In this document: positions 18,396-60,403 of the stretch, one piece after another
Layout of the letters: each line of letters begins with the position of its first letter
Numbering within the stretch: position 1 is the first letter of the stretch
Source: Beroe forskalii
Taxonomy: Eukaryota > Ctenophora > Nuda > Beroida > Beroidae
Direction of reading: 5' to 3'
Length of the DNA stretch: 64,000 nt
NCBI GenBank assembly: GCA_011033025.1
Contig: WFMF01000118.1
Location: 391,621 to 455,620 of the forward strand
Notes under the pieces: model-generated
Told to the model about the DNA's origin: nothing
What the model saw: the letters and a program-made list of their open reading frames with translations, nothing else
Database searches by the model: none
Program-made: the position numbers and the translations under genes

Positions 18396-18407
18396 GGTCT
18401 GCTGTGA

Positions 18408-18945
18408 CAGTAAGTCCACGCAGAATCAGATGCAGAACGAGTTGACAGTAAGTCCACTCAACAGAAGGGTAGGACAGACAGTAAGTCCGTTCAAGAGGTA
18501 AGCACTGACAGTAAGTCCGCACTTGGGAAGATGAAACTGACAGTAAGTCCGTTTCAGGGAAGATAGTACTGACAGTAAGTCCGTACTAGAGAAGATGAAA
18601 CTGACAGTAAGTCCGTTTCAGGGAAGATAGTACTGACAGTAAGTCCGCACTAGAGAAGATGAAACTGACAGTATAGTAAGTCCGTTTCAGGGAAGATAGT
18701 ACTGACAGTAAGTCCGCACTAGAGAAGATGAAACTGACAGTAAGTCCGTTTCAGGGAAGATAGTACTGACAGTAAGTCCGTACTAGAGAAGATGAAACTG
18801 ACAGTAAGTCCGTTTCAGGGAAGATAGTACTGACAGTAAGTCCGTACTAGAAAAGATAAAACTGACAGTAAGTCCGTTTCAGAAAAGATAGCACTGACAG
18901 TAACTCAGTAAGTCCGTACTAGAGAAGATGAAACTGTAAGAGGGA
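18408..18945 (-). repeat. Hairpin array in the leader of the gag fragment (32-bp units)
   Basis: About 17 units share the core GACAGTAAGTCC (plus strand); neighbours are ~32 bp apart and alternate in a 64-bp pattern. The core folds as GAC-agtaa-GTC, and the flanks that extend the stem differ between units yet stay complementary: AGTAC/GTACT (18565-18587), GAAAC/GTTTC (18597-18619), GAGT/ACTC (about 18438) and GGAC/GTTC with a G-T pair (about 18473). Some units have AC mismatches (AGTAC/GCACT) or short duplications. It lies immediately 5' of the minus-strand gag ATG, so in RNA it would be a leader of successive stem-loops. Confidence 0.8.
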
Positions 18946-18989
18946 AGAGATAAGACAAAAGGCAAGTTCTTGCTTTCTTGGAGCCGAGG

Positions 18990-20386
18990 CCACCAGTTAT
19001 AGTACCGCGGGGGTACGGGTCTCGTGGGCGTAGCGGTAGTACACGAAGTAAAGACACTAACAACTTCGCTTTTATCTGTAAGAAGTTCTATGTTATAACA
19101 CTTCTTAAAGAACTTGGTTTTGACACTGATACACTAGAATGTACGGGTAACAAAACCTACTCTCCTCTCCCAAACGACCCTGACTTCTACGTCGAACAAA
19201 TAACCTCGACATTACGAGACAAGTACTCTATCACCGTCGACGACCAAAACATGTGTCTACCACGGCTGTTCTGGAATCCCAAACTCCACAAGAACCCATA
19301 CAAAGCACGCTTCATAGCTGGGGCTAGAAGCTGTGCTACCAAACAGCTGAATATCCTTGTTAATTGTAGTCTTAAACTCCTCCGAGAATACTTTAAGAAG
19401 TATTGTCAGACAATATACAATAACAGTGGTGTAAATGTGTTCTGGAGCATAGATTCTTCTGCACAGTTTTCTTGAGTCACTGCAGGGCAGTGAAGTATTT
19501 AATCTCCAAATATATGACTTTACCACTTTATATACCAATTTAGACCTTAAAGAAGTTGATGATATGATTGGAGAAGTTATAGACCTTATCTTTTCGGAAA
19601 GAAACAAGTACATAAATATTTGTAAGTACAGTATGATACAAACAAGTGTTTCTTCGCGAAGAAGGTCTATGACGGCTACCATAGTTTTGATAGAGATCAG
19701 CTCAAAGAAGCAGTACATTTTATCATCTAAGCATCTATCACACCTATATAGTTTTCGCAGGTAAAGTTTTTATCCAAGTCTTAGGAATCCCCATGGGTGG
19801 AAATTCCAGTTCCCCCATCGCGGATCTCACTCTCGCTAAACGAGAGTTTAACTTCATGCTTAATCTTTTAAAGTCTAAAAAGTTCTCTCTCGCTAAGATT
19901 CTTTCTAAGACACGACGCTACGTTGATGATCTTATAACCACTAATTATCTCAACTTTGAAGCTCTCATCAAACAAATCTATCATCCTTCTCTTGAAATGG
20001 AGAGGTCAGGTAACGACAACAAAAACGCCAATTACCTGGACCTCAACATTTCTATCCAACCAAGCAAGGTTATTGTGTCTGTATATAACAAGACCGATGA
20101 CTTTAATTTCTCTGTAGTTTCCTTATTAACATTTCCACAAAGTAATATCCCTCTAGATGTAGGCCATAATGTATTTTACAGTCAAATCCTTAGATATGCA
20201 AACATTTGTACTGAATTTGAAACTTTCCCTCTCAATCTTAAAAAAGTTTTCCAAAAACTGATTGAAAGGGGATATAGTAGCTCCAATCTTGTAGACATTA
20301 TCAAACGTTGCCTGAATAAGAATAGCTTAGTTTTTCAAAAATATGCCATTTTAGATAACAGTGTTATATTAAATCAATTTGATTAG
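18990..20386 (+). pseudogene. Penelope-like element reverse transcriptase, frameshifted
   Basis: Three frames together give a Penelope-like RT. The first (to 19475) contains PKLHKNPYKARFIAG, the RT1-2 region. The second, from about 19474, carries I-Y-D-F-T-T-L-Y-T-N-L, the RT3 (motif A) region with its Asp. The third holds G-I-P-M-G-G-N-S-S-S-P near 19784, then R-Y-V-D-D-L at about 19916-19933 (catalytic DD), then Y-L-D-L-N and a P-Q-S-N-I-P thumb region. Frame changes occur near 19474, 19632 and 19750, and stops lie at about 19728-19756, so the copy is dead. The N-terminus is abrupt and no GIY-YIG domain follows directly; it ends with TAG at 20384-20386. A GIY-YIG relic of the same class lies at 37.6 kb. 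Confidence 0.88.
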
Positions 20387-21262: not shown

Positions 21263-21407
21263 CACCACCAAAACCGTTGGACGGTTGGTCTAGTAACCCC
21301 CCGCGGGTTTGGATGTGACAACAGAACCTGAAAAGGTCCAAAATGGACTGACCACATCCAAACCAGCGGGGGGTTACTAGACCAACCGTCCAACGGTTTT
21401 GGTGGTG
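21263..21407. mobile_element. 145-bp palindromic MITE
   Basis: CACCACCAAAACCGTTGGAC... (21263) is answered by its near-perfect reverse complement ending at 21407; the arms are about 56 bp. TAT sits on both flanks, compatible with a 2-3-bp target duplication. Related single-arm copies with CCAAAACCGTTGGACGGTTG lie at 36168-36260 and 36424-36513, so the family is dispersed. Confidence 0.8.
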
Positions 21408-23445: not shown

Positions 23446-23699
23446 AATTCTTTTTGCTTATCTAAGCTCCCAGAGAGCTTATCTTAATTCTTAAATTGCA
23501 ACAAACTTTGGATGACATACCTACATTTATTATACAAAGTAGTTCCATACCTATAACTCTATAAGCTTTATTTTAGGATCGGGGCCCTTTCATTGCACCA
23601 GAAAACTACTTGTGTTGTTTTAGTGTTTACCGCTCGGCACTAGACTATTGTTCACCCCAAGTGGGCTTACTCTTACCGGCTAAACCCACTTACTTTAAC

Positions 23700-23710
23700 T
23701 GGTGGCCCGG
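23700..23710 (+). promoter_or_regulatory. Candidate primer-binding site TGGTGGCCCGG
   Basis: It starts with TGG, lies ~270 bp after the poly(A) hairpin and 31 bp before the first leader hairpin, and would pair with a tRNA 3' end CCGGGCCACCA. From memory, isoleucine tRNAs end similarly, but I cannot verify this. The position is right for an LTR retrotransposon. Confidence 0.35.
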
Positions 23711-23737
23711 TTTAAGAACTTTTCTTTACTTGTTTGA

Positions 23738-24439
23738 AGGACTGTCTTCGGCAGTTCTGTTTTGCTTGTCTTGTTTGCAACAGGACGAGTTTTTCTTTTC
23801 GAGCATCTGTTTGCAACAGATCTCGTCTCTCTGCTAGTTGTTTGGGCACTGTATTCTACAGTACCAAACTCTTCTGTTTTGCTTGTCTTGTTTGCAACAG
23901 TACAAGTTTTCTCTTCGAGTCTCTGTTTTCAACAGATCTCGCCTCTTTGTTAGGTGTTTGGGCACTGTATTCTACAGTACCAAAGCCTCTGCTGCTAGTC
24001 TTGTTTGCAACAGGACTAGTTTCTTTCTATCTGCTATCTGCAGTGTTTTGAGGCTCTGTTTTCAACAGACCTTGCTTCCTTGCTTGCTGTTTAGTTACTG
24101 TAAACTACAGTAGTACTAGACTTGTTGACTAGAGTTTTGTCTGCGGCAATACTCTCGTCTTGCTGAATTTGACTTGTTAGCAACAAGCTCAGATTCATCT
24201 CTGCTATCTGCAGACGCCCAGTTGAATTGTTCTCTACAGTTCACTCATTCTTGTTATCTACAAGATCTTCCTGAGATCACTGTCAGCGACAGTTCTCATT
24301 TTCTTGTCTCCTGAACCCTCTGTCATCGGCAGATTAGGTTCTTCCCTCTGTTATCAACAGAGTAAGTGAGACAACCTCTGTTATCTACAGGGTTTCCCAT
24401 CTGTTATCAACAGATCTTCCTTCCTGATTGCTTCAGGAA
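23738..24439 (+). repeat. Array of ~20 covarying hairpins in the gag leader
   Basis: Consecutive hairpins with 3- or 5-nt loops fill almost the entire 700 nt. Examples are ACTGTA-ttc-TACAGT (23848-23862 and 23964-23978), TCTGTT-ttc-AACAGA (23922-23936, 24055-24069), ACTGTA-aac-TACAGT (24097-24111), CTTGTT-agc-AACAAG (24173-24187), TCTGC-tatct-GCAGA (24200-24214), TCTTGT-tatct-ACAAGA (24249-24265), ACTGTC-agc-GACAGT (24279-24293), CTCTGTT-atc-AACAGAG (24346-24362), ATCTGTT-atc-AACAGAT (24399-24415) and TTCCTGA-ttgct-TCAGGAA (24421-24439). Stem bases change on both sides together, with G-U pairs as intermediates. The last hairpin ends 23 nt before the gag ATG. Confidence 0.9.
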
Positions 24440-24462
24440 CTTCTCATTCCTACACCACCAAC

Positions 24463-25557
24463 ATGGATCTCCAAGCATGGGCTCAGCTGAAGATGACGCT
24501 GCAGAATGAAGTTCAACAGCAACAGCAGGCTGTTGAAGCTGCCCAGCCTGCAGACAAGGATGCTCAGCAGAAAGTGCTCGACGACAAGCGAGCTGAACTG
24601 CTAGTACTCTTCAGAGAGGAGCATCAACTGCAGACCCAGCTGTTAGGTGGTGGAACGACTTCTGGCAGAGTGACAGCTGCCGTAAATGAAAGTGGAAACA
24701 ACGTTATGGGCAGTGAGGTTGACGACAGTGACTCAGAAGCTGAGGAGTCTACAACCGTCAAGTACACTTTTAAACTCACTCGCCCAGACAAGTACAAGGA
24801 GGGGAACAACTTTGCTGATTTCTGTGCTGACTTCAGAGAGCACGTCCAACTCACTAGGATGAAGGACGACAACCTCAGCACTTACTTCATAAATCTCCTG
24901 GATGCAACGACGAAGAAAAAGCTTCGCAAAGCTATCCTTTCCCCAGCCCAACGTCGGGATCCAGACAAGTTCATCCCGATCTTCAGGAGGAAAATGATGC
25001 CCCCTCATGAAGCTGAAAACCTCCAGATGGATTTCTCAGACTTAGCCCAGAAGTCTGACGAATCCATTGAATCCTTCGCACACAGAGTTGAAGACACTGC
25101 TTCCCTCGCCTTTGCTGAGGATTCCCGTGCCAATGTCGACGATCAGTGCTTCTCTGCCTTCGTCAAGGGGCTCAGTGACACCAAGCTGAGGATTCAGCTC
25201 CGTGAGAGCTCCATCCGGACGTTTACTGCTGCTGTGGAGGAAGCTATTCGTCGTCATGGAATCAGGCAGGCGGAGGAGAAGAGGAGAGCACCGGAACAGA
25301 CTACTGACATCCCTGAGGAGGTCTACAGGATCGAGCAAGATACCCTGCATCGGGACCACAGACACCACGAAGCTGCTGCCCATGGAAGCTCGTCCAATCA
25401 GCACTTTGACAGACGCAAGGGCAGAGGAGGAGCTAAACGTGGTGGTAACAGGGATACTCGAGACAGAGCGGAGAAGAACAAGAACAAGCTCTGTCACTAC
25501 TGTAAGCAGCCTAACCACTTCGCCAAGCACTGCCTTCTGAATCCTTTAAACTACTAG
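24463..25557 (+). CDS. gag: Gag polyprotein of a Gypsy-type LTR retrotransposon
   Basis: A 364-residue open frame from the first ATG after the hairpin leader. Residues 1-60 are helical and Gln/Ala-rich; 80-100 are acidic (D-D-S-D-S-E-A-E-E). From about 104 (K-L-T-R-P-D-K-Y-K-E-G-N-N-F) to 270 comes the retrotransposon capsid-like region. A basic Arg/Gly/Lys stretch (R-R-K-G-R-G-G-A-K-R-G-G) leads to a CCHC zinc knuckle, C-H-Y-C-K-Q-P-N-H-F-A-K-H-C, at 344-357. The product would assemble the particle and bind genomic RNA. The frame is intact with a high-GC codon bias unlike the AT-rich surroundings, suggesting a fairly recent insertion. It ends seven residues past the knuckle, right after a slippery sequence. 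Confidence 0.93.
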   Translation: MDLQAWAQLKMTLQNEVQQQQQAVEAAQPADKDAQQKVLDDKRAELLVLFREEHQLQTQLLGGGTTSGRVTAAVNESGNNVMGSEVDDSDSEAEESTTVKYTFKLTRPDKYKEGNNFADFCADFREHVQLTRMKDDNLSTYFINLLDATTKKKLRKAILSPAQRRDPDKFIPIFRRKMMPPHEAENLQMDFSDLAQKSDESIESFAHRVEDTASLAFAEDSRANVDDQCFSAFVKGLSDTKLRIQLRESSIRTFTAAVEEAIRRHGIRQAEEKRRAPEQTTDIPEEVYRIEQDTLHRDHRHHEAAAHGSSSNQHFDRRKGRGGAKRGGNRDTRDRAEKNKNKLCHYCKQPNHFAKHCLLNPLNY

Positions 25558-25606
25558 AAGATCGTGCCACTGCTGCAGATGCACGATCTGAGGATCAGAA
25601 GCAGCA
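25545..25606 (+). promoter_or_regulatory. -1 ribosomal frameshift signal (slippery site plus H-type pseudoknot)
   Basis: TTTAAAC (25545-25551) is in the gag register T-TTA-AAC, the canonical X-XXY-YYZ heptamer. After a 7-nt spacer containing the gag stop, stem 1 is AGATCGTGC (25559-25567) with GCACGATCT (25581-25589). Loop bases TGCTGC (25571-25576) can pair with GCAGCA (25601-25606) as stem 2, giving an H-type pseudoknot with 3-, 4- and 11-nt connectors. A -1 shift at AAC enters the pol frame, which has no ATG start nearby. This matches known frameshift signals in every element. Confidence 0.88.
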
Positions 25607-26929
25607 ACATGTTCTGGCAACCTCTGGATTGGATCAGAGCCAGATCATCGTCAGAGGAACCTGTGAGGGAGCAAGTGCGACATTCTTCATCGACACTGGT
25701 AGCTCCGTGTCACTTGTGAGTCGTCACTTCGTCGCCTCTCAAGGCCTCTCTAGTCGGATCACCCCTTCTACTCTCTCCCTGAAGTCCTTCACTTCAGACA
25801 AGATCAAGACCTATGGAGAGATCAAACTGACGGTCTGCCTAGCTGGACAATCTCTTTGTCACAGACTGATCGTCACAGATCTGCTGGATACTCACTGCTT
25901 GGTTGGTCTGGACATGCTTTCTGCGTCCAAGATCAACATTGATGTCAAGGGTCAGTGTCTCAGATCTGCTACCGACACAACACCTTTCCTGAAGCGACCC
26001 ACACAGCTCAAATCCGTTTCAGCAGTTAGGAGTAGACGAACTGTCACCATTCCTCCTAACAGTGTGATGTTCCTCGACTGTAAAGTCCCGGACATTGACT
26101 CCACCTGCTCGCACACTGCCTTCCTGGAACCTAAAGAAGCCCTCCTGACATCGTCAGGACTCCTCGTCCAGAGCAGCCTGTGCCACACTGAGGGAGATAG
26201 TGTACCTGTGAAGGTTGTCAACCTCAGTGACGACCCCACTGTGCTCTACAAGAACAAGGTTCTTGGCCAGCTCCACCCCGTGGACAACTCCTGTGACAAG
26301 CACATCAGGAGAGTGACTGCTACGAGAAGTGAGGAACCTGAGTGGCGGCAGGAGCAGAGAGTCAACGAGATCCTACTTGACGACAAACAGGAGGACAGCA
26401 AACCCTGGACTAAAAGCTGGTTGTACAAGGAGCTCAAGATCGACAGCATCGACGGCATCACCCCACAGGAGAGACATCGTCTCAAGTCCATTGTCTGGAA
26501 ATACCGAGATTGCTTCTCGCGTGGACCATTTGACCTGGGGGAATGCACTACCTATGAGGCGGAGATCAACCTCAAACCGGATTACAAACCCACTTGGGTA
26601 CCTGCCCGACCTGTCCCATACCTACTGCGTGAGGAGATGGACAGACAGATTGCTGGTCTGGAGAAAGCAGGTGTAATCGAGGAGTGCAAGACGAAATCCC
26701 TCTTCAACAGCCCAATCTTCCTGGTGAAGAAGCCTCACCAGCCCAACAAGATGCGCTTCGTTGTGGACATGAGAATGGTGAACTCTCAATGCCTCCCCGA
26801 TGACTACCAGATCCCTCTCATCGGGCATGTTACTGACAAGATAGCTGGCAACGAGTGGTACAGCACGTTTGACTGTTCCCAAAGTTTTCACCAAATCAGA
26901 TATTCTGAGAGCTCCAAACCGGTCACGGC
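25551..26929 (+). pseudogene. pol: Gypsy pol, 5' part: protease and start of RT (interrupted)
   Basis: This frame lies -1 relative to gag and is open from the slippery site. An aspartic protease region has F-F-I-D-T-G-S-S at about 25684-25707. After a linker, the RT begins with W-V-P-A-R-P-V-P-Y near 26599, E-K-A-G-V-I-E-E, S-P-I-F-L-V-K-K, and M-R-F-V-V-D-M-R near 26751. It reaches the motif A region Y-S-T-F-D-C-S-Q-S-F-H-Q near 26860. Coding stops at 26929, where an 8.5-kb TIR element is inserted; the downstream half resumes at 35449. The protein would process Gag and copy the RNA, but this copy is broken. Reading continuity across the insertion shows it was intact when hit. Confidence 0.93.
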
Positions 26930-27070
26930 GGGGGGGGGCCAACGTCCCGCTTTGTCCCGTTTTGTCCCGTTTTGTCCCGCTCCAAAAAATGTCCCGTTTG
27001 GAAAAATAGGTGAGCAACGGGACAAAAATGGGACATAGCGGGACATTGCGGGACAAAGCGGGACATTTGT
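26930..27070. repeat. Left GTCCCG subterminal repeat block
   Basis: TTTGTCCCG repeats run into GGGACAAAG repeats with a central gap, so the block is self-complementary. It mirrors the block at 35305-35439. Confidence 0.85.
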
Positions 27071-27135
27071 CTCTTGCAGACTTCACTGCAACATGAGACT
27101 CATTTTAAAACCTTACAACTATTTGATATAGTCAG
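27071..27135. other. Short spacer carrying the target site of the nested element
   Basis: Ends with ATAGTCAG (27128-27135), the 8-bp target duplicated by the element that follows. Confidence 0.7.
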
Positions 27136-28482
27136 CCCGGTTGGAATAACCTGCAATCCTGGCAATCCTAGCTGGGCAACATTATTTGTTAAAGCAACCA
27201 TGAAATTTCAGAATTTAACGACTTAAAATTAGGTGTGCAGCTACAATTTTACTGTTACATCAGTCAGTTTTCAAAAATGGAGAGTGAAACGTGCAATCAT
27301 AGTTTGCTACTCACTGTATCACCATCAGTATGCAATGCATAAAATTCCCATTTTATTCTTAGCACTAGTCAGGATTACTATGTTGGTATCATTCATATTA
27401 TGATATTACACCTTCTCGCTTTAATAATTACTGCAGAAGGGATATGCGTAGTGTATCTACTTCCCTCATAATATCCAGCATATATCCAGAATTCCATGGA
27501 CCATGCTAGCGCAACCAGAGCAACCCAACTTGTTACTTTTTTCGGAGGATTGTAAGCTCCGCTTACAATCCTGGAGGCTCTCTCGCAATCCTGGTTGCGA
27601 TCCTGGTTGCAGCTGATTAGATTATTGTGAGGGTGAGCTGTAGTAAAACACTGCTGCTGAGAGCAGCAACTTGCAAGCTCTCTAAAGCGGTGGTTGCACT
27701 TCCAGTCGGCATGATCTGATCGAGTTTTAACTTTTAAGGAGTGGACTTAATTTTAACAAAAACAAAAATCCAATTAGAAATAAAAACCAGGAGTATATCT
27801 AATATTCGTATTCAAGATACAGCGACACATAGACAATATTAAATCATGATCAATATTCAGCCTGAAATTTGTTTTTTTCGAACTCTGTGTATGAGTAAAG
27901 GTGACGTTTTGACTCGCTTATCAAACAAAAAATCTGTGCTTCCATTTTTTTTAGGATAGTAATATATCAAACGACAGCCTTTTAGCTGATTATATTTGTG
28001 AGTTATTAAGTTATAAGCCTGACACACAATTGATCTTTGAAACATGAACATTTACTTTTACAATTCATCAATTGGTTGAGTAAAAGAATAGTGAGCAGTG
28101 AGTAAGTGATTCAAATTTTGTCTGTCAGGTGGAAATAATTATGAATTAGGTACATAATGTGTAGCTTACTCGGGGCTTCTGAATCAAAAAATTAGAGATT
28201 TTTGAATGAAACACGCTGTTTAAATCTCGGATATTTTCTTGCTCAAATGAAGGAAAACCCTGCAAAATTATAAATTTTTAGCAAAAATTTTCCGGGGGGG
28301 CTTCGCCCCCTAGACCCCCCACCAGGGGCTCTGCCCCTGGACCCTGCTGGGGGCTGCGCCTCCAGACCCCTGCTGCAGCTCGCTCGGCGCCGCTTCGCGG
28401 CACCTCGCTCGCAACCAAAAGCTACCGTGCTCGCTTCGCTCGCACAGGATTGGCAACCAGCCTAACCTTTATTCCAACCGGG
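27136..28482. mobile_element. 1.35-kb TIR element with 8-bp target duplication (hAT-like size)
   Basis: The ends CCCGGTTGGAATAA (27136-27149) and TTATTCCAACCGGG (28469-28482) form a perfect 14-bp inverted repeat. ATAGTCAG flanks both sides (27128-27135, 28483-28490). Subterminal sequences are rich in CAATCCTGG and GGTTGC in opposite orientation (27156-27620 and 28440-28460). There is no transposase frame. The 8-bp duplication is what hAT elements make, although the terminal bases are not the usual CA-start. Confidence 0.87.
28285..28455. repeat. Cluster of GC-rich stem-loops with CTTCG-type loops
   Basis: Successive hairpins: GGGGGGCTTCGCCCCC (about 28294), CCAGGGGCTCTGCCCCTGG (about 28322), GGCGCCGCTTCGCGGCACC (about 28386) and GCTCGCTTCGCTCGC (about 28428). 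They sit near the right end of the nested element, in a sharp GC peak. Confidence 0.8.
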
Positions 28483-28490
28483 ATAGTCAG

Positions 28491-29154
28491 ATACATCACT
28501 ACATGGGCATTCTATACGTATATCAAACAAAATGGAAGAGATAAGGTCGACTAAACAAGGGAGATTAAGCAGGAGAGAATGGGTCCAAAAATTGCTATTT
28601 TTCTTATGAAATGCGATTGTTCTTGAGTTTTCGAGCCGGAAATTGCTGTCTGATACAGATTAAAAAACTTTTGAAATGACTAGTGTCCAGTTATCCAGTA
28701 TGCCAGACCAGGTATCCTTGATTCTTCGAACCCCAGGCCTGATATACTGATGTAGGCATTAGAAATAAGAGATACGTCCTGGTTTTACGTTCTGATTATA
28801 TGTTTTCAGGATACCTGGTCTGGCATTTATGATCACAATGTTTCAAATAGATGTGGCAATGTTTTTAGTCCGACCTACTGTGGCACGGCACTTTCAGCAG
28901 TCAATGCCATGTTAACAAGACAGTGTTATTGTCGTGGTGTCAGAAAAGCACGCAATTAGCTTGATAAAGTCAATAACTCAGTCGTACTACGAGTCCCTAA
29001 TTGTACAAATACGCCAGACTGCGTGTCTCTCACATCAGGACGTGACACTTCATGTACTATCTGAGTAATTTCAAACCATCACTATCTCTCTATGTAGACT
29101 ACGTGTATCTACTATCTACGTATCTGAAACCAGCATGCCATTACACACTTTTTC
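28491..29154. other. Non-coding; short inverted repeat and start of minisatellite
   Basis: ATGCCAGACCAGGTATCC (about 28699) is inverted at about 28808 (GGATACCTGGTCTGGCAT), a 110-bp foldback. From about 28890 degenerate TGTCTCTGACACCAG-type units begin. Confidence 0.55.
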
Positions 29155-29490
29155 GAGCTAGTGGGGGCCAAGGCCCCCCTAGATTTTTTCAAGGGGGGGC
29201 CTTTTGAAAACTACGGGGGGCCAAAATTTAAAGAAGCAAATTTTCATTTTCCATAGCCCTACTTTTCACAATTTTGCATAAAAATACGACTAAAATCATA
29301 TTTTATTCATTGATTCAACTCTAAAAAAGGTAAATTTCAGGAAAATTTCTGTCTAAATGAACTAAATTTTCACTTCCTTTCTATGTTCAAATTTTTGAGA
29401 AAATCTTAGGTAGGGCCGAGGCCCCCCCTAAGATTTTTTTGAAAACTAGGGGGGCCTGGCCCCCCCCCTAAGGGGGGGCCGTGTAGTCCC
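29155..29490. mobile_element. MITE-like element with G-rich ends, copy 1
   Basis: It starts about GGGGGCCAAGGCC (29162) and ends GGGGGGGCCGTGTAGTCCCATG. It shares order and sequence with the copy at 37015-37321: GGGGGGCCTTTTGAAAA, TTTTGCATAAAAATAC, CAAATTTTTGAGAAAATC, TTAGGTAGGGCC. It splits the TGACACCAG minisatellite. Target duplication not resolved. Confidence 0.7.
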
Positions 29491-29499
29491 ATGGAAACC

Positions 29500-31250
29500 A
29501 GTACATCAGACTACGTGTCAGAGATATTATTTGACACCAGTAGGTAAGTGTTGACGTCTTTTGGCGTATTACGGCACGGTGCCTGACACCAGTACGTCAT
29601 ACAGAGTGTCCTTACTGCCTACTATCTTTAAACATCAGTCACATAATGTGTCTATGACACCACAACAGCTCTGACACCAGTATAATAGTACCAACAATTC
29701 TGACACCAGCATTAGTAAAACATCATAGTCTCTTAAACCAGTACGTCATACAAGATGTCTCTGTCACCACTACGCAACCCTCTAACACTAGTAAAACGCC
29801 TTATGAAGAGTCCCTGACAACAGTACTGCAGACAACTCTCAAACATCAGTGAGACTACCCGGGGTGTCTGACACGAGCAGATGAGACTACGTGTCTCTGT
29901 CACCAGCCGGTGAGACTACGTGTCTGTCACCAGCAGGTGAGACTTCGTGTCTCTGTCACAAGCAGGTGAGACGTGTCTCTGACACCAGCAGGTGAGACTA
30001 CGTGTCTCTGTCATCAGCAGGTGAGACTACGTGTCTCTGTCACAAGCAGGTGAGACTACGTGTCTGTGTCACAAGCAGGTGAGACGTGTCTCTGTCACCA
30101 ACAGGTGAGACTACGTGTCTCTGACACCAGCAGGTGAGACTACGTGTCTCTGACACCAGCAGGTGAGACGTGTCTCTGTCACCAGCAGGTGAGACTACGT
30201 GTCTCTGACACCAGCAGGAGAGACGTGTCTCTGTCACCAGCAGGTGAGACTACGTGTCTCTGACACCAGCAGGTGAGACGTGTCTCTGTCACCAGCAGGT
30301 GAGACTACGTGTCTCTGACACCAGCAGGTGAGACTACGTGTCTCTGTCACCAGCAGGAGAGACATGTCTCTGTCACCAGCAGCTGAGACTACGTGTCTCT
30401 GACACCAGCAGGAGAGACGTGTCTCTGTCACCAGCAGGCGAGACTACGTGTCTCTGTCACCAGTAGACAAGACTCGGTGTATCTGACACCAGGTTGTGAG
30501 ACTGCATGTATCTGACAGCCTGACACCAGTAGGTAAGACTTCGTGTCTTTGACACCAGTATACAGTCAGTATGTGAGACTAGGTGTCTCTGACACGAGTA
30601 GGTGATATGACGTGTCTCTGACACCAGTAGGGGGGACTACGTGTCTCTGACACCAGGTGGTGAGACTGCGTGTATCTGACACCAGCAGGTGAGACTACGT
30701 GTATGTCAGTATGTGAGACTAGGTGTCTCTGACACGAGTAGGTGATATTATGACGTGTCTCTGGCACCAGTAAGGGGACTACGTGTTCCTGACACCAGTA
30801 GGTGACACAACGTGACTCTGACACCAGTATGTGAGACTGTGTGTCTACTGTCTCTGAAACCACTGGTGAGACACTAGTGTCCCTGACATCATTATGTAGA
30901 ACTGGAGGTAAGACTACGTGTTTATGACACCAGTAGGTGAGACTACGTGTCTCTGACACCAGTAGGTGAGACTACGTGTCTCTGACACCAGTAGGCGAGA
31001 CTACGTGTCTCTGACACCAGTAGGCGAGACTACGTGTCTCTGACACCAGTAGGCGAGACTACGTGTCTCTGGACAAGGTGGTGAGACTGCGTGTATCTGA
31101 CAGCCTGACACCAGTAGGTAAGACTACGTGTCTCTGACACCAGTATGTGAGTATGTGAGACTTGGCTGACACGAGTAGGTGATATGTCGAGCTGCACCAG
31201 TAGGGGGGACTGCGTGTTGCTGATACCAGTACGTAAGTCGTAAGTCTACC
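29500..31250 (-). repeat. 26-29-bp minisatellite (GTGAGACTACGTGTCTCTGACACCAGCAG type)
   Basis: About 60 units. The best-ordered part is 29870-30460, where 29-bp and 26-bp forms (with or without ACTA) alternate; the margins are degenerate. The unit shares the core CTGACACCAGT with the reverse complement of the 22-bp minisatellite at 6.9-7.4 kb. Open frames on either strand arise from the repeat. Confidence 0.92.
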
Positions 31251-31269
31251 TCAGTTCATCACTTGTTTT

Positions 31270-31760
31270 GTCCGGTTTGTGCAGCTTCTACCACTTTTCT
31301 TCACTTTCTTGAGTCAAATTTGTCTCCATTGTCCTTGTCTGTTTTCATTTTCTGAGTCTCATTTGTCTCTGTCACATTTGTCCAAACTTTCCTTGTCCGT
31401 TCTCACTCGTTTGAGTCCAATTGCCTTTGTCCCAATTGTCCCTCTCATCCCAATTGTCCATATCCCAATTCCATTTTTGAGCCCTATTAGTTATCCGCCG
31501 GTTATGTCATCTTTTATAGCCTGAGGCACTACTTGGCAAGGTCACATGGCCGGCGGATTTTTAATACGCGAAGTATATTCTCTGACCCAACTTTTCATGC
31601 CCAAATTCACTTTTCGAGTCCCTTCTGCCCCTATCCCAATTTCCCTGATCCGTTTTCACTTTTTGACTCCCATTTGTCGCTGTCCAATTTATCTCAATCT
31701 TTCTTGTTCATTGTCATTCTCGCCTCACAAATTTGAGTCCACACTCCTACTCTTCACTCC
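31270..31760 (+). repeat. Degenerate pyrimidine-rich minisatellite (TTTGTCCCAATTGTCC)
   Basis: Diverged units built on CCAATTGTCC / TCATTTGTCTC / TTTGAGTCC every 20-30 bp. Confidence 0.55.
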
Positions 31761-32370
31761 TCTTCAGACCATGCACAAGCTCTAACCAGTGGCATGCCCA
31801 AAGGGCACAAGGTTAACAGTTTATGGACTAGACATGGTAGAGAGTGGACGAGCGTGTGGTGAAAAAGTCCTACACTTTCTGAACGTTTGTTTTCTTAAAA
31901 AATTGTATGACTGTGATGCTGTGTGCTTGCGTATTGAACTCCACTATTTTATTTTTTCCAACTTCTAACACGTGCAAAATTTTACTAATTAAATAATTAA
32001 GGATTCGCTTCTGTAGTGGATGCGTAATTAGGTTTTGAAACACTTCTCCAAAGGTGGGAGTGGGCTTGCCTGCAGCTAATTAGATTTGCGGCCTGCTAAG
32101 GTAATGTTGCCGGTGATAGTGTGATAATGTTCAGATTACATTACAGACATGATAATCTCTCAAGAGTGTAAGATTAATGTAAAATTGCTTTAGGTAGCGC
32201 AAACAAAATTCTGTGAACAGAGCCTGGCCTCGTAAACTTACAGAAATTACCAGCCCGAGAAAGCTGTAGTTTTGACGTGAAAGATATAAAAATTTGCAGT
32301 AGGTACAGTATAATATCGTAAATTGTTAAAACCATTAAAAAAGCTAAGAAGAGCATCACAAAATGTCACA
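31761..32370. other. Non-coding, nothing recognised
   Basis: AT-rich DNA with no supported frame or repeat unit. Confidence 0.4.
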
Positions 32371-33010
32371 CAAAACTCATACAGTTAGCTATGACCAGTC
32401 GCCTCACAGATGTCGCAGTATTCATACAGCTTATTATGACACTGTCGCCTGTTATATCTTTATATCTCGGCTAACGCAGATGTTTCAGTTTCCATACAGC
32501 TAACTATGACACTGTCGCCTGTTATATCTCGTCTAAGAAAGATGTTACATTATCCATACAGCTAACTAGTAACTATGACACTGTCGCCTGTTATACTGTT
32601 ATAGTATCTCCGGCTAACAGTATTCATGACACAGTCGCCTCACAGCTAACAGTCTAACACAGCATTCATACAACTAACTATAACACCGACCGGGTGGGCG
32701 ATTTCTTAATCTCACGACATTTCATCTCAGGTCACATTATCTCCCTGCCCTAACCATGACCCAAACCCAAACCCCAACTTTGATCCAAACCCATAACCTT
32801 ACCCTTGCAGAGAGCTGATATACTTATTGTGAGATGAATAGTGTCTTGGGATGAAATGTCCGTCCCCTATTAGGTACACTGTAGCCTGTTATAATATCTA
32901 ATACCTACAGATTTCACCCACTATTACACAGTCGCCTCACAGCTAACACAGTATCATACAGCTAACTATGAAACAGTTTAGTTGCCTCACAGCTAACGTA
33001 GCTGATGTAT
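32371..33010 (+). repeat. Degenerate ~60-bp repeat (CAGCTAACTATGACACTGTCGCCT)
   Basis: Units with CATACAGCTAACTATGACAC...GTCGCCTGTTATATCTCG recur at about 32375, 32495, 32557, 32670 and 32940. They are interrupted at about 32690-32870 by a segment whose ends, CATTTCATCTCAGG and TGGGATGAAATG, are inverted, a likely small MITE. Confidence 0.55.
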
Positions 33011-33039
33011 CTCATCAAATAGTAAAAACAACAGACAAT

Positions 33040-33850
33040 GTTTGTTTCACCAACATTGGGAAATTGTATGGTATTGTAGGAAAAAGCGTCGGTACCTATT
33101 ATCGCAGATAAAACGCCGTTTCAGGGACGAATTTTGTACTTTCATTTCATATTTGACCGAAGCCAACTTCCAACGACAAGGTTCAGAAAATGATACGTTT
33201 TTCAGAATTCATGAGTGGCTCAGCTTTCCTTTTAGAAATGCACCAACTATTATGGCCAATCTCTGCCGTATGCCAACAGAGAATTACCTTATCGGACATA
33301 ATTACCTATCACGGATTAAGTTTCACGGACCTAAAAAGCTAAAATTTCACAGACATCATTAATATTCAAGATCGATCCTGTCATTTCAAATTGCAACAAA
33401 AAAGACAAAAATTCGCTTTCCAAATTTTTCCACGATCTGAACACTTGAATTGAAGATTTTTCACTTTTTCGTTAAGTAATTAATATGTACCTATGATAAA
33501 TTTCCATGTTTCACGAAAAAGAGGTAAAATTTCCTTAGAAATTTTCATTATTTCTGCATTTAAAGCAGTAAAGTCAGAAATATTGCGTCTCTACCCGATA
33601 AATTTTAAGAGGAAATAACTGACTTAATTTTCACGGACATTAGTATCACCGCAAAATCTTCACGGACGTTAATCTTCATGCTGAGGTTATCAGCGTGAAT
33701 GTCACGTCCGTGATAATTTTGTCCCATAAGATACGGCTTCTGTTTCCATATTAGGAATGCAATTATTGTGATCATTGCACCATTCTCCAGACTCAAAACT
33801 CCGTTATCGACCAAAAACAAGGCCAAATCGTACGGCTAACAACTTTCTAA
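33040..33850. repeat. Possible foldback element with CACGGAC motifs
   Basis: Left motifs GCCGTATGCC, TTATCGGACATAATTACC and TATCACGGA (33268-33315) have inverted counterparts at 33690-33745 (ATCACGGACGTGAC, CCGTATCTTATGGGAC on the minus strand). Pairing is imperfect and the ends are unclear. A 106-codon open frame inside is not convincing as a gene. Confidence 0.35.
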
Positions 33851-34770
33851 GATTACCAACTACGTTTTGACGTTCTACCCGGTAGGAAGTGTTATAAAAT
33901 TGCTGATTATCTAAAATTATCGATTATCATTAAGTCATAATTACCTACGATTTAATAGGTGTACTGCAGAAAGAAGTAATCAAAGGCCATAATGGCTTAG
34001 GTAGCTGATAAGCTCAATTTTTTCGCGTTCTGACAGACAAGGTGATAAGGTATTACAGTGCTCTAGGTAATTAAGCGGCATTGAAATCCTCATACATACA
34101 GTGCACTTTTGTTAAGTAAGGTATACTTAACACAAACAGTAAGGGTATTTCAACTTTTTGTAATATCATCTGATGGATAATCTGTCCGAAGCAAAATTGT
34201 TGACTCACGGCCCACGGGCGATATCAATTCCACACTCTGGATAATGATAGTTACGTCACTCTTGCAAAAGATCTACTTTATAAATGGCACACATGATCTC
34301 ATTGTTTTTCTTGCCGCTAAATCGTTATTTACACTTTCAAAATAATTTCCCTGTGTATTTATGAAGTCTCCACATGATTAGGTTTCTACACTATCCCATC
34401 TCGCACTAATTGTTATCGAATTACGAGTTCCAAAGATGGGTGCAAGGAGGGACTGGGTCTAATTTCTCAACCGCAATTAGATTCCTTTGATGTCATGCGC
34501 CTCTGTAGGGTAAAAAATACCACACGCTAGTTTTAAGGTACTTTTTTGCAACCATCTTTAATCAAATTAGCCTTAATTAACGAACTAATTAAAATTGAAA
34601 ATTTATTTTTATTCAGTCATACTCGAAATAGGCAAAATCGAAGATAGAGAGAAAATCAGCTTTCTAGCAGCTATGGTTTGTCTGTAATAAAATTGTAAAG
34701 GTATGTGCGGGCATATTCACCACACCCTCGTCGACATACTGTTAAGAGGGTCTCATCACTCTTTTATCTC
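33851..34770. other. Non-coding, nothing recognised
   Basis: AT-rich DNA without repeats or frames that I can support. Confidence 0.4.
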
Positions 34771-34965
34771 TTACCATAGGGATCAAGGTAGTTAATCTTC
34801 GAAGGGGCGCCCCCGACCAATTGTTACTCCTAGAGTATCACCACCTGGTACCAGGTAAGAGGTTGCCAGCAAGGCTAGTAGTGCAACCAGGTGGGTCCCA
34901 GTAAAACTCTCTGCAATTGAGAGTTGCCACCCACCCCGGAAGGGGATGTGGTGGTACGTTGGATA
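34771..34965. repeat. Possible SINE/MITE fragment with CTGGTACCAGG hairpins
   Basis: ACCTGGTACCAGGT (34850) and ACTCTCTGCAATTGAGAGT (34907) hairpins are followed by CCACCCACCCCGGAAGGGG. Similar CTGGTACCAGG-containing sequence interrupts the small-gene block near 40100. Confidence 0.35.
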
Positions 34966-35439
34966 TTCTGATATTGCACCAAACAAACAAATTGTCGTTC
35001 TCTTGCGTACCATTTGTCAATGTCCCATTTGTCCCAAGTGTCCTAAAGGTATTTCCTTAAATTTTCAAAATCAAATGCATTCAAGACCATTGGGCCATTG
35101 GGGTGAGCGTTTAACTTTGCAGCATATATTTGTGAGCTATAAGGGCAAGAAAAGTAGTCCATGAGGCTGAGATCTAAGGTCAGATTTCCCACCATGAGGT
35201 CGAAAATATGCCTGGGATGAAGTTTCACCCCTTATTCAATGAATTCAATGCCCGGTGAGCCAACAAATAAACTTTTTCCTTAAATATTGGAAATTTCATA
35301 TCAGAAATGTCCCGGTTTGTCCCTGTATCGCTTTTGTCCCGGTTTGTCCCGCTCCAAAAAATGTCCCGCTCCAAGATTTGGGTGAGCAATGGGACAAAGC
35401 GGGACAAACCGGGACAAAGCGGGACGTTGGCCCCCCCCC
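34966..35439. repeat. Right end of the 8.5-kb element, GTCCCG block
   Basis: The terminal 135 bp (35305-35439) mirrors the left block, with CTCCAAAAAATGTCCCG in the middle and GGGACAAAG repeats leading into nine C. The first 340 bp of this interval show nothing specific. Confidence 0.75.
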
Positions 35440-51470: not shown

Positions 51471-51784
51471 ACAAATATTATAAAGGAGCAATCCGGGCAC
51501 TTTCCAGAAATTACACTAGTTGTATTGCAAATCTGGACCTGCTATGCACATATCCTATTTCTCACCTTTCCAAAACCACGATCTCTGCCAACCCTCTTCA
51601 TTGCCTTTTTGTTTTACAAAAAGGCCAATGGGGAGGGAAAAAATATTCAAAGAGTAATTGATTAATTAATAAGATGATGTGCCAGTATAGCATTATGTGC
51701 AAATATTTATTTTACACCACCAAATTAAAAGTTACAGTTACTGTATGAAATAATTATTAATTAACAATTATTTTGTAAGTTTGT
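51471..51784. other. Non-coding, nothing recognised
   Basis: AT-rich flank of the LINE fragment. Confidence 0.4.
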
Positions 51785-53333
51785 AACAAAATAAGTTTAT
51801 ATGAAAGTAAAGGCTTTGTTCAACATGTGCAAGGTTCAACACATTTCTCTGGAGGCACTCTAGATTTGGTTCTCTCTTTGCCTTTTGCTATTGAAGGCCT
51901 ACCAATTAACGACCTCACAGTGAACTGTGATACTGGAACAACCTCTGATCACTATCTTGTCAGATTTAATCTTCCATTTAAATTATCAACCAAAGTCTCT
52001 AAAAGCAGCACAAAACAAGTCCGTGAATTCAAAAGAATTGATGTCCCCAGTTTCAGAGAAGACTTGTTCTTTTCTCCATTAAACTTCTCTGATTTTGAAT
52101 CAGTTGACCATGCTGTGCAAATCTACATGTCAACTATGAATGATATCCTGGACAAGCATGCTCCTCTGGTAACAAGAAAGTTCAACACCAGACGTTCAGC
52201 TTGGTGGAATTTAAATTGTCAACAGGCTAGAGTTGAGGCAAGGAGGGCTCAAAGGAAACTTAGTAAAAATCCTGAAAGTGATGAGTTAAAAGAAATATAT
52301 AAAGAAAAGTGTATTGACAAGGCCATCATCATTGACAGAGCTCGTAACTTGTTCTTTGATAAAAAGTTTTCATCTGTCAGAGGGGATTCACGGAGTACAT
52401 ATAAAATTGTCAATCAACTCATGGACAGAGAATTTGGGGCTAACAAGCTCCCCAATGAAACAAAGGACTCAGTCACTGCTGAAAAGTTTTGCTCATTCTT
52501 CAGTAACAAAGTCAAATCAATTTACTCAAAAATTGAAGAAGATCTTAATGAATCACCCAAGACAAATCAAGCAACTTCTGTCCCTGACTGCAACCCACCA
52601 AATTTTTGTCAGTTCCAAGAAGTGTCTATTGAAAAGGTAATGGAGCTAGCAAAAAACCTCCCTGATAAGTCATGTGTTCTGGATGCTATCCCTGTTTCCT
52701 TATTCAAAGAATCCTTACCAGAGCTGATAACAGCTGTCCACTATATCATAAATGAATCACTCAAATCAGGATTGTTTCCTTCTGGTTTCAAGACTGCTGT
52801 AGTTAGAGCAAGTATAAAAAAGAAAAACTTAGATAGTGATGTTTTGTCAAATTATAGACCAATAAGCAACCTACCATATATCTCAAAGCTCCTAGAAAGA
52901 ATAGTACATGATCAACTTGTTTGTCATTTGGAGGAACATGACTTGTTTTCAGATTTTCAGTCTGCCTACAGGAAATATCATAGCTGTGAGACTGCAGTTT
53001 TGAAAATACAGAATGATTTGATGATGATGATGGACAAGAAAGATAATGTTGTTCTCCTTTTATTAGATTTGAGTGCAGCATTTGACACTATCAATCACTC
53101 ACTACTGTTAAAAAAGCTGCAGAATAAATATGGAATCTCTGGTGTTGTTTTGAATTGGATAAAATCATACCTCTCAGAAAGAAAGTTTAAAGTAATAGTC
53201 AATGAAAGCTCATCCCAAGAAACCCTTCTTGAAATAGGGGTTCCTCAGGGATCAATTTTAGGTCCTCTCCTATTCATTTTATACACTAAAGATCTTGAAG
53301 ACATCATATCAAAATATGGACTTTCAGCTTTGG
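51785..53333 (+). pseudogene. Non-LTR retrotransposon (CR1/L2/Jockey group) pol, truncated at both ends
   Basis: The frame is open through about 515 codons with no ATG at its start. It begins in the C-terminal part of the APE endonuclease: G-F-V-Q-H-V upstream, then G-G-T-L-D-L-V-L and T-T-S-D-H-Y with the SDH motif. After a charged linker with W-W-N (about 52200), the RT has N-Y-R-P-I-S-N-L near 52848, F-Q-S-A-Y-R, then L-D-L-S-A-A-F-D (motif A, catalytic Asp) near 53067 and G-V-P-Q-G-S-I-L-G-P-L near 53237. It stops just where the YADD motif is expected, replaced by the satellite at 53334. It cannot make active RT. No stops or frameshifts inside, so the truncation is recent. Confidence 0.92.
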
Positions 53334-56300
53334 GTGATATTGATGAATCAAACGGGCTGGTTCATGCTGAGACAAATAATCACTAGTTTTCATGATACAG
53401 CGGTGCTTTGACATAAACACTTATCCATGTTCAGACCATGGCGTGGTATCACATTTCATCTGAAAATCAATGAGCAATATGAAAATAACATTCAATAAAT
53501 AGATAAATATAGCAAAACAAGCGAGCAATCAGAGGCCAGACATGAATATTTGGAGTTGAATTGATGGGAGATCTTGGGTGATATTGATGAATCAAACGGG
53601 CTGGTTCATGCTGAGACAAATAATCACTAGTTTTCATGATACAGCGGTGCTTTGACATGAACACTTATCCATGTTCAGACCATGGCGTGGTAGCACACTT
53701 CATCTGAAAATCATGAGCAATATGAAAATAACATTCAATAAATGTAGCAAAACAAGCGAGCAATCAGAGGCCAGACATGAATATTTGGAGTTGAATTGAT
53801 GGGTGATATTGGTGAATCAAACGGGCTGGTTCGTGCTGAGACAAATAATCACTAGTTTTCATGATACAGCGGTGCTTTGACATAAACACTTATCCATGTT
53901 CAGACCATGGCGTGGTAGCACATTTCATCTGAAAATCAATGAGCAATATGAAAATAACATTCAATAAATATAGCAAAACAAGCGAGCAATCAGAGGCCAG
54001 ACATGAATATTTGGAGTTGAATTGATGGGAGATCTTGGGTGATATTGGTGAATCAAACGGGCTGGTTCATGCTGAGACAAATAATCACTAGTTTTCATGA
54101 TACAGCGGTGCTTTGACATAAACACTTATCTGTTCAGACCATGGCGTGGTAGCACATTTCATCTGAAAATCAATGAGCAATATGAAAATAACATTCAATA
54201 AATATAGCAAAACAAGCGAGCAATCAGAGGCCAGACATGAATATTTGGAGTTGAATTGATGGGTGATATTGGTGAATCAAACGGGCTGGTTCATGCTGAG
54301 ACAAATAATCACTAGTTTTCATGATACAGCGGTGCTTTGACATAAACACTTATCTGTTCAGACCATGGCATGGTAGCACATTTCATCTGAAAATCAATGA
54401 GCAATATGAAAATAACATTCAATAAATGTAGCAAAACAAGCGAGCAATCAGAGGCCAGACATGAATATTTGGAGTTGAATTGATGGGAGATCTTGGGTGA
54501 TATTGGTGAATCAAACGGGCTGGTTCATGCTGAGACAAATAATCACTAGTTTTCATGATACAGCGGTGCTTTGACATAAACACTTATCTGTTCAGACCAT
54601 GGCGTGGTAGCACATTTCATCTGAAAATCAATGAGCAATATGAAAATAACATTCAATAAATATAGCAAAACAAGCGAGCAATCAGAGGCCAGACATGAAT
54701 ATTTGGAGTTGAATTGATGGGAGATCTTGGGTGATATTGATGAATCAAACGGGCTGGTTCATGCTGAGACAAATAATCACTAGTTTTCATGATACAGCGG
54801 TGCTTTGACATAAAAACTTATCCATGTTCAGACCATGGCGTGGTAGCACACTTCATCTGAAAATCAATGAGCAATATGAAAATTACATTCAATAAATGTA
54901 GCAAAAAAGCGAGCAATCAGAGGCCAGGCATGAATATTTGGAGTTGAATTGATGGGAGATCTTGGGTGATATTGATGAATCAAACGGGCTGGTTCATGCT
55001 GAGACAAATAATCACTAGTTTTCATGATACAGCGGTGCTTTGACATAAACACTTATCTGTTCAGATCATGGCGTGGTAGCACATTTCATCTGAAAATCAA
55101 TGAGCAATATGAAAATAACATTCAATAAATATAGCAAAACAAGCGAGCAATCAGAGGCCAGACATGAATATTTGGAGTTGAATTGATGGGAGATCTTGGG
55201 TGATATTGGTGAATCAAACGGGCTGGTTCATGCTGAGACAAATAATCACTAGTTTTCATGATACAGCGGTGCTTTGACATAAACACTTATCCATGTTCAG
55301 ACCATGGCGTGGTAGCACATTTCATCTGAAAATCAATGAGCAATATGAAAATAACATTCAATAAATGTAGCAAAACAAGCGAGCAATCAGAGGCCAGACA
55401 TGAATATTTGGAGTTGAATTGATGGGAGATCTTGGGTGATATTGATGAATCAAACGGGCTGGTTCATGCTGAGACAAATAATCACTAGTTTTCATGATAC
55501 AGCGGTGCTTTGACATAAACACTTATCTGTTCAGACCATGGCGTGGTATCACATTTCATCTGAAAATCAATGAGCAATATGAAAATAACATTCAATAAAT
55601 GTAGCAAAACAAGCGAGCAATCAGAGGCCATACATGAATATTTGGAGTTGAATTGATGGGTGATATTGGTGAATCAAACGGGCTGGTTCATGCTGAGACA
55701 AATAATCACTAGTTTTCATGATACAGCGGTGCTTTGACATAAACACTTATCTGTTCAGACCATGGCGTGGTATCACATTTCATCTGAAAATCAATGAGCA
55801 ATATGAAAATAACATTCAATAAATGTAGCAAAACAAGCGAGCAATCAGAGGCCAGACATGAATATTTGGAGTTGAATTGATGGGAGATCTTGGGTGATAT
55901 TGATGAATCAAACGGGCTGGTTCATGCTGAGACAAATAATCACTAGTTTTCATGATACAGCGGTGCTTTGACATAAACACTTATCCATGTTCAGACCATG
56001 GCGTGGTAGCACACTTCATCTGAAAATCAATGAGCAATATGAAAATAACATTCAATAAATGTAGCAAAAAAGCGAGCAATCAGAGGCCAGACATGAATAT
56101 TTGGAGTTGAATTGATGGGAGATCTTGGGTGATATTGGTGAATCAAACGGGCTGGTTCATGCTGAGACAAATAATCACTAGTTTTCATGATACAGCGGTG
56201 CTTTGACATAAAACTTATCTGTTCAGACCATGGCGTGGTAGCACATTTCATCTGAAAATCAATGAGCAATATGAAAATAACATTCAATAAATATAGCAAA

Positions 56301-60395: not shown

Positions 60396-60403
60396 AGCTT
60401 ATT

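Follow-up and report, generated by a model that had tools for sequence, protein, structure and literature searches.

A chain of covarying hairpins in the leader of a Gypsy-like element of Beroe forskalii, with lineage-specific counterparts in the same genome

Results

The leader is a chain of 22 hairpins

A Gypsy-like element of the ctenophore Beroe forskalii carries, between a sequence resembling a primer-binding site (PBS) and the ATG of its gag gene, an array of short hairpins that exceeds chance expectation, whose stems covary, and which recurs with lineage-specific cores in related elements. The element lies in a stretch of 64,000 nucleotides, called here the window (contig WFMF01000118.1, positions 391,621 to 455,620 of the forward strand; G000:C157:391621-455620 in the searched genome of 216 Mb and 1,134 contigs). 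Positions given below are those of the window.

The PBS-like sequence TGGTGGCCCGG (23700-23710, plus strand) marks the upstream end of the leader. The chain, characterised by folding, hairpin scans and covariation tests, occupies positions 23738-24439 of the same strand and consists of 22 copies of a 13-nt hairpin unit with the core YUGNN-NNC-NNCAR (23742-24436), all in one orientation and with a start-to-start spacing of 23-42 nt. The final hairpin found in the scan (24421-24439) is followed 23 nt farther by the gag ATG. The first-pass annotation had described about 20 serial hairpins between candidate PBS and gag ATG, an estimate close to the count obtained here, and the compensated stems that it listed are all present in the leader. 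The unit pattern was composed after inspection of the sequence and fixes T2, G3, C11 and A12, as well as, initially, the loop base C8; the constancy of the inner U-A and G-C pairs therefore proves nothing, because the pattern itself fixes them. When the loop base was left free, 22 units were still found and the third loop base was C in all of them. A motif-free scan (stem of at least 5 pairs with G-U allowed, loops of 3-6 nt) detected 21 hairpins, with C third in the central triplet of 20 of the 21 (rows counted by hand; the exception lies at 24264-24278). At the position adjacent to the loop, U-A, C-G and A-U pairs occur along with a U-U mismatch; the next pair out is U-A, U-G, C-G or A-U, and the outer pairs occur as U-A, A-U, C-G and G-U variants. 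The leader thus resembles alphavirus packaging arrays in having multiple stem-loops that share a conserved motif on variable stems.

Part of the chain arose by tandem duplication. A 116-nt unit present in 2.3 copies (23755-24022, plus strand; detected with Tandem Repeats Finder), which the earlier annotation did not mention, carries several hairpins on board, and within it one pair of three outer stems reads U-G, U-A and A-U, respectively. Two long hairpins of the plus strand are paralogues: that at 23764-23790, found in the hairpin scan, has 12 pairs including G-U and a TGC triloop, and that at 23994-24020, identified from the scan and the unit rows, has its outer pair compensated. No match to Rfam 15 reached the gathering score in the window or in nine related loci; the best weak match within 23600-24500 (E 0.21, 18.6 bits versus a cut-off of 143.5) is on the minus strand.

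Folding and covariation exceed shuffled controls

The leader folds at -243.3 kcal/mol compared to -173.9 +/- 5.8 for shuffled sequences (z -12.1, 0/20 shuffles), and its antisense strand gives a z of -8.7. In spans of 45 nt, z is -12.8 for the leader, -1.4 for the coding sequence after the ATG and -2.1 for the stretch before the PBS. Hairpin counts were compared with 300 dinucleotide shuffles. Watson-Crick hairpins with stems of at least 6 pairs numbered 10 with loops of 3 nt (shuffle mean 0.19, maximum 2) and 12 with loops of 3-6 nt (mean 0.63, maximum 4). The most permissive measure (stem of at least 5, G-U, loops 3-6) was weaker, with 21 versus 12.0 (maximum 18).

Aligned as eight-pair stems, the units have 83.8% of their cells paired versus 67.9% when shuffled (0/500), with double-sided changes in 30 cells versus 11.5 (0/500) and a covariation score of 0.476 versus 0.203 (0/500); shifting the partner by 1-3 columns lowers pairing to 31-53%. 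Two measures stayed within the shuffles, namely the number of pairs with any double change (6 versus 4.9, 121/500) and that of further pair types (16 versus 13.4, 47/500). Tested pair by pair, offsets 2, 3, 6, 7 and 8 from the loop centre reached p <= 0.023, and offsets 9-12 fell short of p 0.05.

Because the units partly arose by duplication of the 116-nt segment, each 8-nt 5' flank was also paired with its own 3' flank and with the 3' flanks of the other copies. Pairing with the own partner was 3.27 versus 1.26 for cross-partners over all 22 copies (p 5e-5), and 3.06 versus 1.19 when near-duplicates were dropped (18/22 kept, p 5e-5). Tandem duplication as the sole cause is thus rejected, since own-partner pairing prevails even without near-duplicates. 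These tests bear out the first-pass annotation on two counts: the stems do covary, and shuffled sequence does not fold equally well.

Related elements carry chains with other cores

A search of the genome with the leader DNA returned only the window leader itself, and no close gag relative was found among 84 gag matches, the top non-self match being 36% identical. Seventy of these 84 places, self included, were fetched with their flanks (designated here by L numbers, the window element being L002); at least two of the other 14 are second pieces of a neighbouring match. Twenty-five leaders of at least 40 nt were scored against 30 shuffles each, the ATG of L017 being set by hand. Eight of them, the window leader, L004, L005, L029, L007, L008, L031 and L058, fold with z <= -3.6 (0/30 shuffles), and the remaining 17 have z of -2.0 or higher. 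The same cut was passed by one of 26 control coding stretches (L018, -4.9; L015 at -3.3) and by one of 25 control upstream stretches (L057, -5.1; L044 at -3.4).

By eye and by pattern, the eight low-z leaders are all chains, and L038, whose fetched piece begins 334 nt downstream of its PBS, is a ninth. The unit patterns of the relatives were composed after reading each leader. The cores are C-UCACU-G in L004 (about 23 units), GGAC-UUACU-GUC in L031 (17-18 units), GUC-AAC-GGC in L005 and its near copy L029 (6 units each), GCACU-loop-AGUGR with a variable loop in L007 (16 units), C-UCAUU-G in L008 (10 units), UC-GGAUU-GA in L058 (11 units) and UYGCAUUGA in L038 (9 units). A further chain lies in the window itself, in the leader of a second element on the minus strand (18397-18995; PBS TGGTGGCCTCGG at 18984-18995, ATG at about 18394); with at least 14 GGAC-UUACU-GUC units, it belongs to the L031 lineage. 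Judged by eye, the gag of this minus-strand element is interrupted by other sequence after about 54 codons. Each lineage has its own fixed core with covarying outer stems, so that the architecture is common and the sequences differ.

The own-partner test was applied to nine leader chains (window, L004, L005, L031, the minus-strand window element, L007, L008, L058 and L038). With identical copies dropped, p was 5e-5 for L004, L008 and L058, 0.0001 for L007 and for the minus-strand leader, 0.00015 for L038, 0.00035 for L031 and 0.0016 for L005, a value close to the minimum attainable with 6 copies. With near-duplicates dropped, p ranged from 5e-5 to 0.0088 (0.0016 for the minus-strand leader), and was 0.042 for L038 with 4 copies. 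Three lineages retain mismatches at constant positions: G-A at offset 6 in 4/4 kept copies of L031, U-U or U-C at offset 5 in 6/8 of L008, and purine-purine at offset 7 in 7/8 of L007. In these lineages the outer pairs covary while the mismatches stay. The proposal of the earlier annotation that the RNA structure is under selection, perhaps for packaging, translation or dimerisation, is supported as to selection, as shuffles fold worse and diverged relatives show the architecture with other sequences.

The form TGGTGGCC was found upstream of gag in 26/70 fetched places; in L006 and L038 it lies farther upstream. The 12-nt form TGGTGGCCTCGG occurs 44 times in the genome versus 5 for the reversed control. 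Of the 44, the window and L038 account for one each, and 14 precede gag places among those fetched. Among 19 further stretches, no half had a z under -2.8 (7 were read fully, and 12 were judged by score and first 70 bases). Nine hits stand outside this downstream check (five on C392, and C35:336776, C325:667720, C913:405512 and C1089:4846).

Several other arrays were rejected as chains. L039 (25 hairpins, one stem), L065, L069 and the repeats at 29.8-31.2 kb of the window look like ordinary single-unit satellites rather than covarying chains (L065 and L069 by eye). The array of L028 proved from its coordinates to be the L004 leader on the opposite strand, and L037, L044, L049 and L067 hold a few similar hairpins by eye (three in L067), with leader fold z of -0.9 to +0.6; with a loose pattern, own-partner pairing in L044 gave p 0.033 and 0.086. 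None of these four was counted as a chain. In L084 (150-620), an array of repeats of about 35 nt (CTGGAAGCAACTGCAGAACCCCTGAAGTGAGG) lies downstream of a PBS-like site and does not covary by eye.

Chains represented in the gag tree share one clade

A tree of the gag pieces was built with FastTree from 67 of the 70 places; L031, L040 and L045 were dropped, their pieces being too short, and the minus-strand window element is absent from it. Eight leader chains and two coding chains (see below) all fall within one clade of 16 (support 0.83), the other members being four elements without a convincing chain and two that could not be judged (L003 and L039). Nested within this clade are one of 5 (window, L003, L004, L005 and L029), with support 0.99, and one of 11, with support 0.84; the position of the window element within the clade of 5 is unsupported (0.12). 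As a side observation on the scanned gag proteins, the CCHC knuckle reads NH in L002, L003, L004, L005, L017, L031 and others, and GH in L006, L007, L008 and L021; a shorter knuckle, likewise with NH, occurs in L012, L014, L015, L018, L020, L022, L024 and L028.

Chains also occur outside leaders

The long N-terminal part of gag in L006 and L021 contains a related array, which has the core C-GACCU-G and encodes the peptide QRPA/QRPV; in L021 the frame of the array differs from that of the gag match. Own- over cross-partner pairing is significant in both coding arrays (p 0.0002 each). The RP dipeptides of L006 use CGA in 18/20 and CCT in 17/20 cases, compared to 8/48 and 11/45 for the other R and P codons of the same frame. 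Recent duplication can explain part of this bias, yet L006 and L021 share the core.

Repeats of CTTGTTAACTATAAG with pairing flanks are located before the PBS, not after it, in L014, L015, L018 and L022. The units on this long terminal repeat (LTR) side, TTGTTAACTATAA, gave p 0.005 for L018 and L022 and 0.008 for L015, and were not significant for L014 (2 copies); after stricter removal of near-duplicates, 2 to 4 copies were left and no offset was significant. The case for arrays before the PBS in L015, L018 and L022 is weak.

Folding strand and AUG content

Stem cells were summed over nine chains, with L029 excluded and identical copies dropped. Watson-Crick cells numbered 674 versus 522 in shuffles, G-U cells 64 versus 91, A-C cells 24 versus 55 and other cells 96 versus 190. 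That G-U is lost least points, modestly, to the sense RNA as the folding strand.

The nine chain leaders (5,817 nt; L029 excluded, L038 partial) contain one AUG versus about 66 in shuffles. Most leaders were taken to end at the first in-frame ATG; they lack in-frame ATGs by construction, and ATGs in the other frames are unaffected. The count covered leaders of about 200 nt or more. AUG avoidance is general among the leaders here. This near-absence of AUG suggests that the leaders are scanned, which argues against an internal ribosome entry site.

Discussion

Hairpins as candidate docking sites

One fixed core, many repeats and freely changing paired stems have the look of a repeated site for an RNA-binding protein. 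We propose that the chain is a series of about 22 putative protein-docking hairpins, which would serve as multivalent Gag sites marking the genomic RNA for packaging, a proposal for which we consider the case evenly balanced. The docking protein would be the element's own Gag, through its nucleocapsid region; Gag is favoured as the partner for two reasons: from one gag lineage to the next the fixed part changes and the architecture does not, and the array lies near the 5' end of the RNA. Many copies could give high-avidity, self-specific recognition of the genomic RNA, with packaging as its likeliest use. Ribosomes would probably scan through the weak hairpins of the nearly AUG-free leader, and Gag loaded along the chain might block scanning and so switch the molecule from messenger to genome, this step being the least supported.

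A more far-reaching form of the proposal is possible but doubtful. Elements of the clade might each use a private hairpin tag, present in 6 to about 23 copies close to the 5' end of the RNA, as an identity code read by the element's own Gag. The code would diverge together with gag, so that related elements in one genome package only themselves; the array would be modular (leader, gag coding sequence, perhaps LTR), and cooperative loading of Gag would stop scanning. The recognition of their own RNA by Ty3/Gypsy elements is poorly defined, and several natural versions of the array in one genome make the question testable. If true, the chains would clearly exemplify a structured RNA signal whose architecture persists through replacement of its sequence.

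Several results weigh against Gag docking. L017, L057, L060 and L067 belong to the same clade and have no convincing leader chain, so the chain is either not indispensable or has moved. The CCHC knuckle occurs in chain and non-chain elements alike (28/30 scanned places) and is therefore not a marker of chain carriers, and AUG is also scarce in nine longer chainless leaders (5 versus about 45 expected). The coding chains of L006 and L021 could partly reflect recent duplication of a peptide repeat. As to the structure itself, the preference for G-U over A-C is just modest and is absent in L058 (4 and 4), L007 shows no pairing excess outside its fixed core in a gapless alignment and does so only when a bulge is allowed, and in L006, L021 and L031 only the summed tests are significant, no individual offset attaining p 0.05.

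Alternative explanations

The hairpins might instead dock a host RNA-binding protein, or act alone, in controlling how the element's RNA is exported from the nucleus, stabilised or translated, the lineage cores corresponding to different host partners. The anatomical evidence for this is the same as for Gag docking, and structural control of translation would be natural in a leader that is nearly AUG-free and probably scanned. However, at least seven fixed cores in one host would demand as many host proteins, and a core that changes along the gag lineage would better fit a self-encoded partner; we consider a host partner rather unlikely. Reading the units as sites on double-stranded DNA that bind a transcription factor or an insulator protein, like the Su(Hw) sites of Drosophila gypsy, would agree with the shared orientation of the 22 copies and with the gypsy insulator, which has the same element region and a similar copy number as far as described in the text consulted (PMC2374998). 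Such sites conserve bases and not pairing, whereas here the stems vary by paired changes and own-partner pairing surpasses cross-pairing, which disfavours DNA sites; related chains also lie within coding sequence, and the Su(Hw) core TGCATA occurs 0 times in 23700-24462 on both strands. This explanation appears improbable.

The symmetry of the units could also be a mutational product of template switching in imperfect hairpins during reverse transcription, arising with no selection on structure. Reverse transcription is intrinsic to such elements and tandem duplication is evident in the leader, but correction of this kind would erase mismatches, which L031, L008 and L007 keep at fixed places; a purely mutational origin is therefore disfavoured. 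G-U pairs are moreover common and the loops are fixed in most lineages, making this explanation very improbable. There is likewise only a slim prospect that the hairpins are dimerisation sites, at which the loops or palindromic stems of two RNAs would pair. The stems are inverted repeats that could open into intermolecular duplexes, and palindromes have been suggested as mediators of Ty1 dimers in the part of the review consulted (PMC4974528). The loops (NNC, UCACU, UUACU, AAC, UCAUU, GGAUU and GCAUU) however mostly lack self-complementarity, a point against simple kissing-loop dimerisation, and the differing stems within one leader give no single kissing partner. A few L058 loops read GGAUC and contain a 4-nt palindrome.

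Relation to known systems

The comparisons that follow draw on partial texts of the papers cited. In logic, the nearest parallel is the packaging signal of alphaviruses, which lies in coding sequence (nsP1) at a position that varies between members (PMC8233893); it comprises 4-6 hairpins and does not belong to a retroelement, whereas the chains of B. forskalii have 6 to about 23 units and a different core per lineage in one genome. In MS2 and other single-stranded RNA viruses, multiple RNA sites contacting the coat protein promote assembly (PMC4751978, PMC6281560). These signals are dispersed across the genome, unlike the hairpin chains, which are clustered near the 5' end and have a fixed core. 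Closest in position is the Drosophila gypsy insulator, in which a Gypsy element bears a repeated protein site, 12 Su(Hw) sites of consensus core TGCATA, within its 5' untranslated region (PMC2374998). These are DNA sites in AT-rich sequence with a stated consensus, and RNA pairing is not mentioned in the text available to us. Ty1, Ty3 and retroviruses likewise have cis-acting packaging signals close to the 5' end of their RNA and recognition by Gag, and a 2016 review stated that the Gag-binding sites in Ty1 or Ty3 RNA lack precise definition (PMC4974528). An encapsidation role of the Ty1 pseudoknot could not be shown, palindromes being also discussed, and the portion consulted of this review contains no serial array of one hairpin type (PMC4974528). 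In the titles and abstract beginnings of the open-access papers that our searches listed, we found no description of a hairpin-chain leader in an LTR or Gypsy element, in agreement with the first-pass annotation, which knew of no Gypsy leader built this way.

Layout of the element and neighbouring sequence

The gag gene (24463-25557, plus strand) was identified in a domain scan as Retrotrans_gag-like (E 7.5e-4; 20.1 bits, under the cut-off of 24.1) and encodes the CCHC knuckle CHYCKQPNHFAKHC. It is followed by the start of pol (25515-26930, plus strand), which encodes an aspartic protease and the beginning of a reverse transcriptase in one frame (RVP_2 at residues 40-145, RVT_1 at residues 405-472, the latter under its cut-off). 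No integrase family was detected between the two at E <= 0.001 in the scanned frame. The element thus shows two Ty3/Gypsy traits, a gag with a CCHC knuckle and a protease followed by a reverse transcriptase with no integrase between them. We call it only Gypsy-like because a second LTR was not found in the window: the stretch before 23700 has no other copy there, and the contig ends with the window. The second LTR may be lost, diverged or outside the window. A tRNA matching the PBS-like sequence was looked for and none was found. Public data contain nine homologues of the gag protein, 42-76% identical, and a gag search of viral contigs found nothing.

The reverse transcriptase frame is interrupted by an insert at about 26930-35390, whose inverted ends (about 26930-27060 and 35306-35439) measure about 120 nt. 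The insert includes minisatellites of 29 and 26 nt at 29.8-31.2 kb, with a hairpin density like that of the leader and a single kind of unit. Upstream of the element, an inverted repeat at 21263-21407 has 55-nt arms that are 98% complementary and separated by a 35-nt spacer. Two further plus-strand frames, at 18954-20386 and 51779-53386, contain motifs that we take to resemble those of Penelope-like and non-LTR reverse transcriptases, and the frame at 51779-53386 leads into a 234-nt satellite at 53330-60402.
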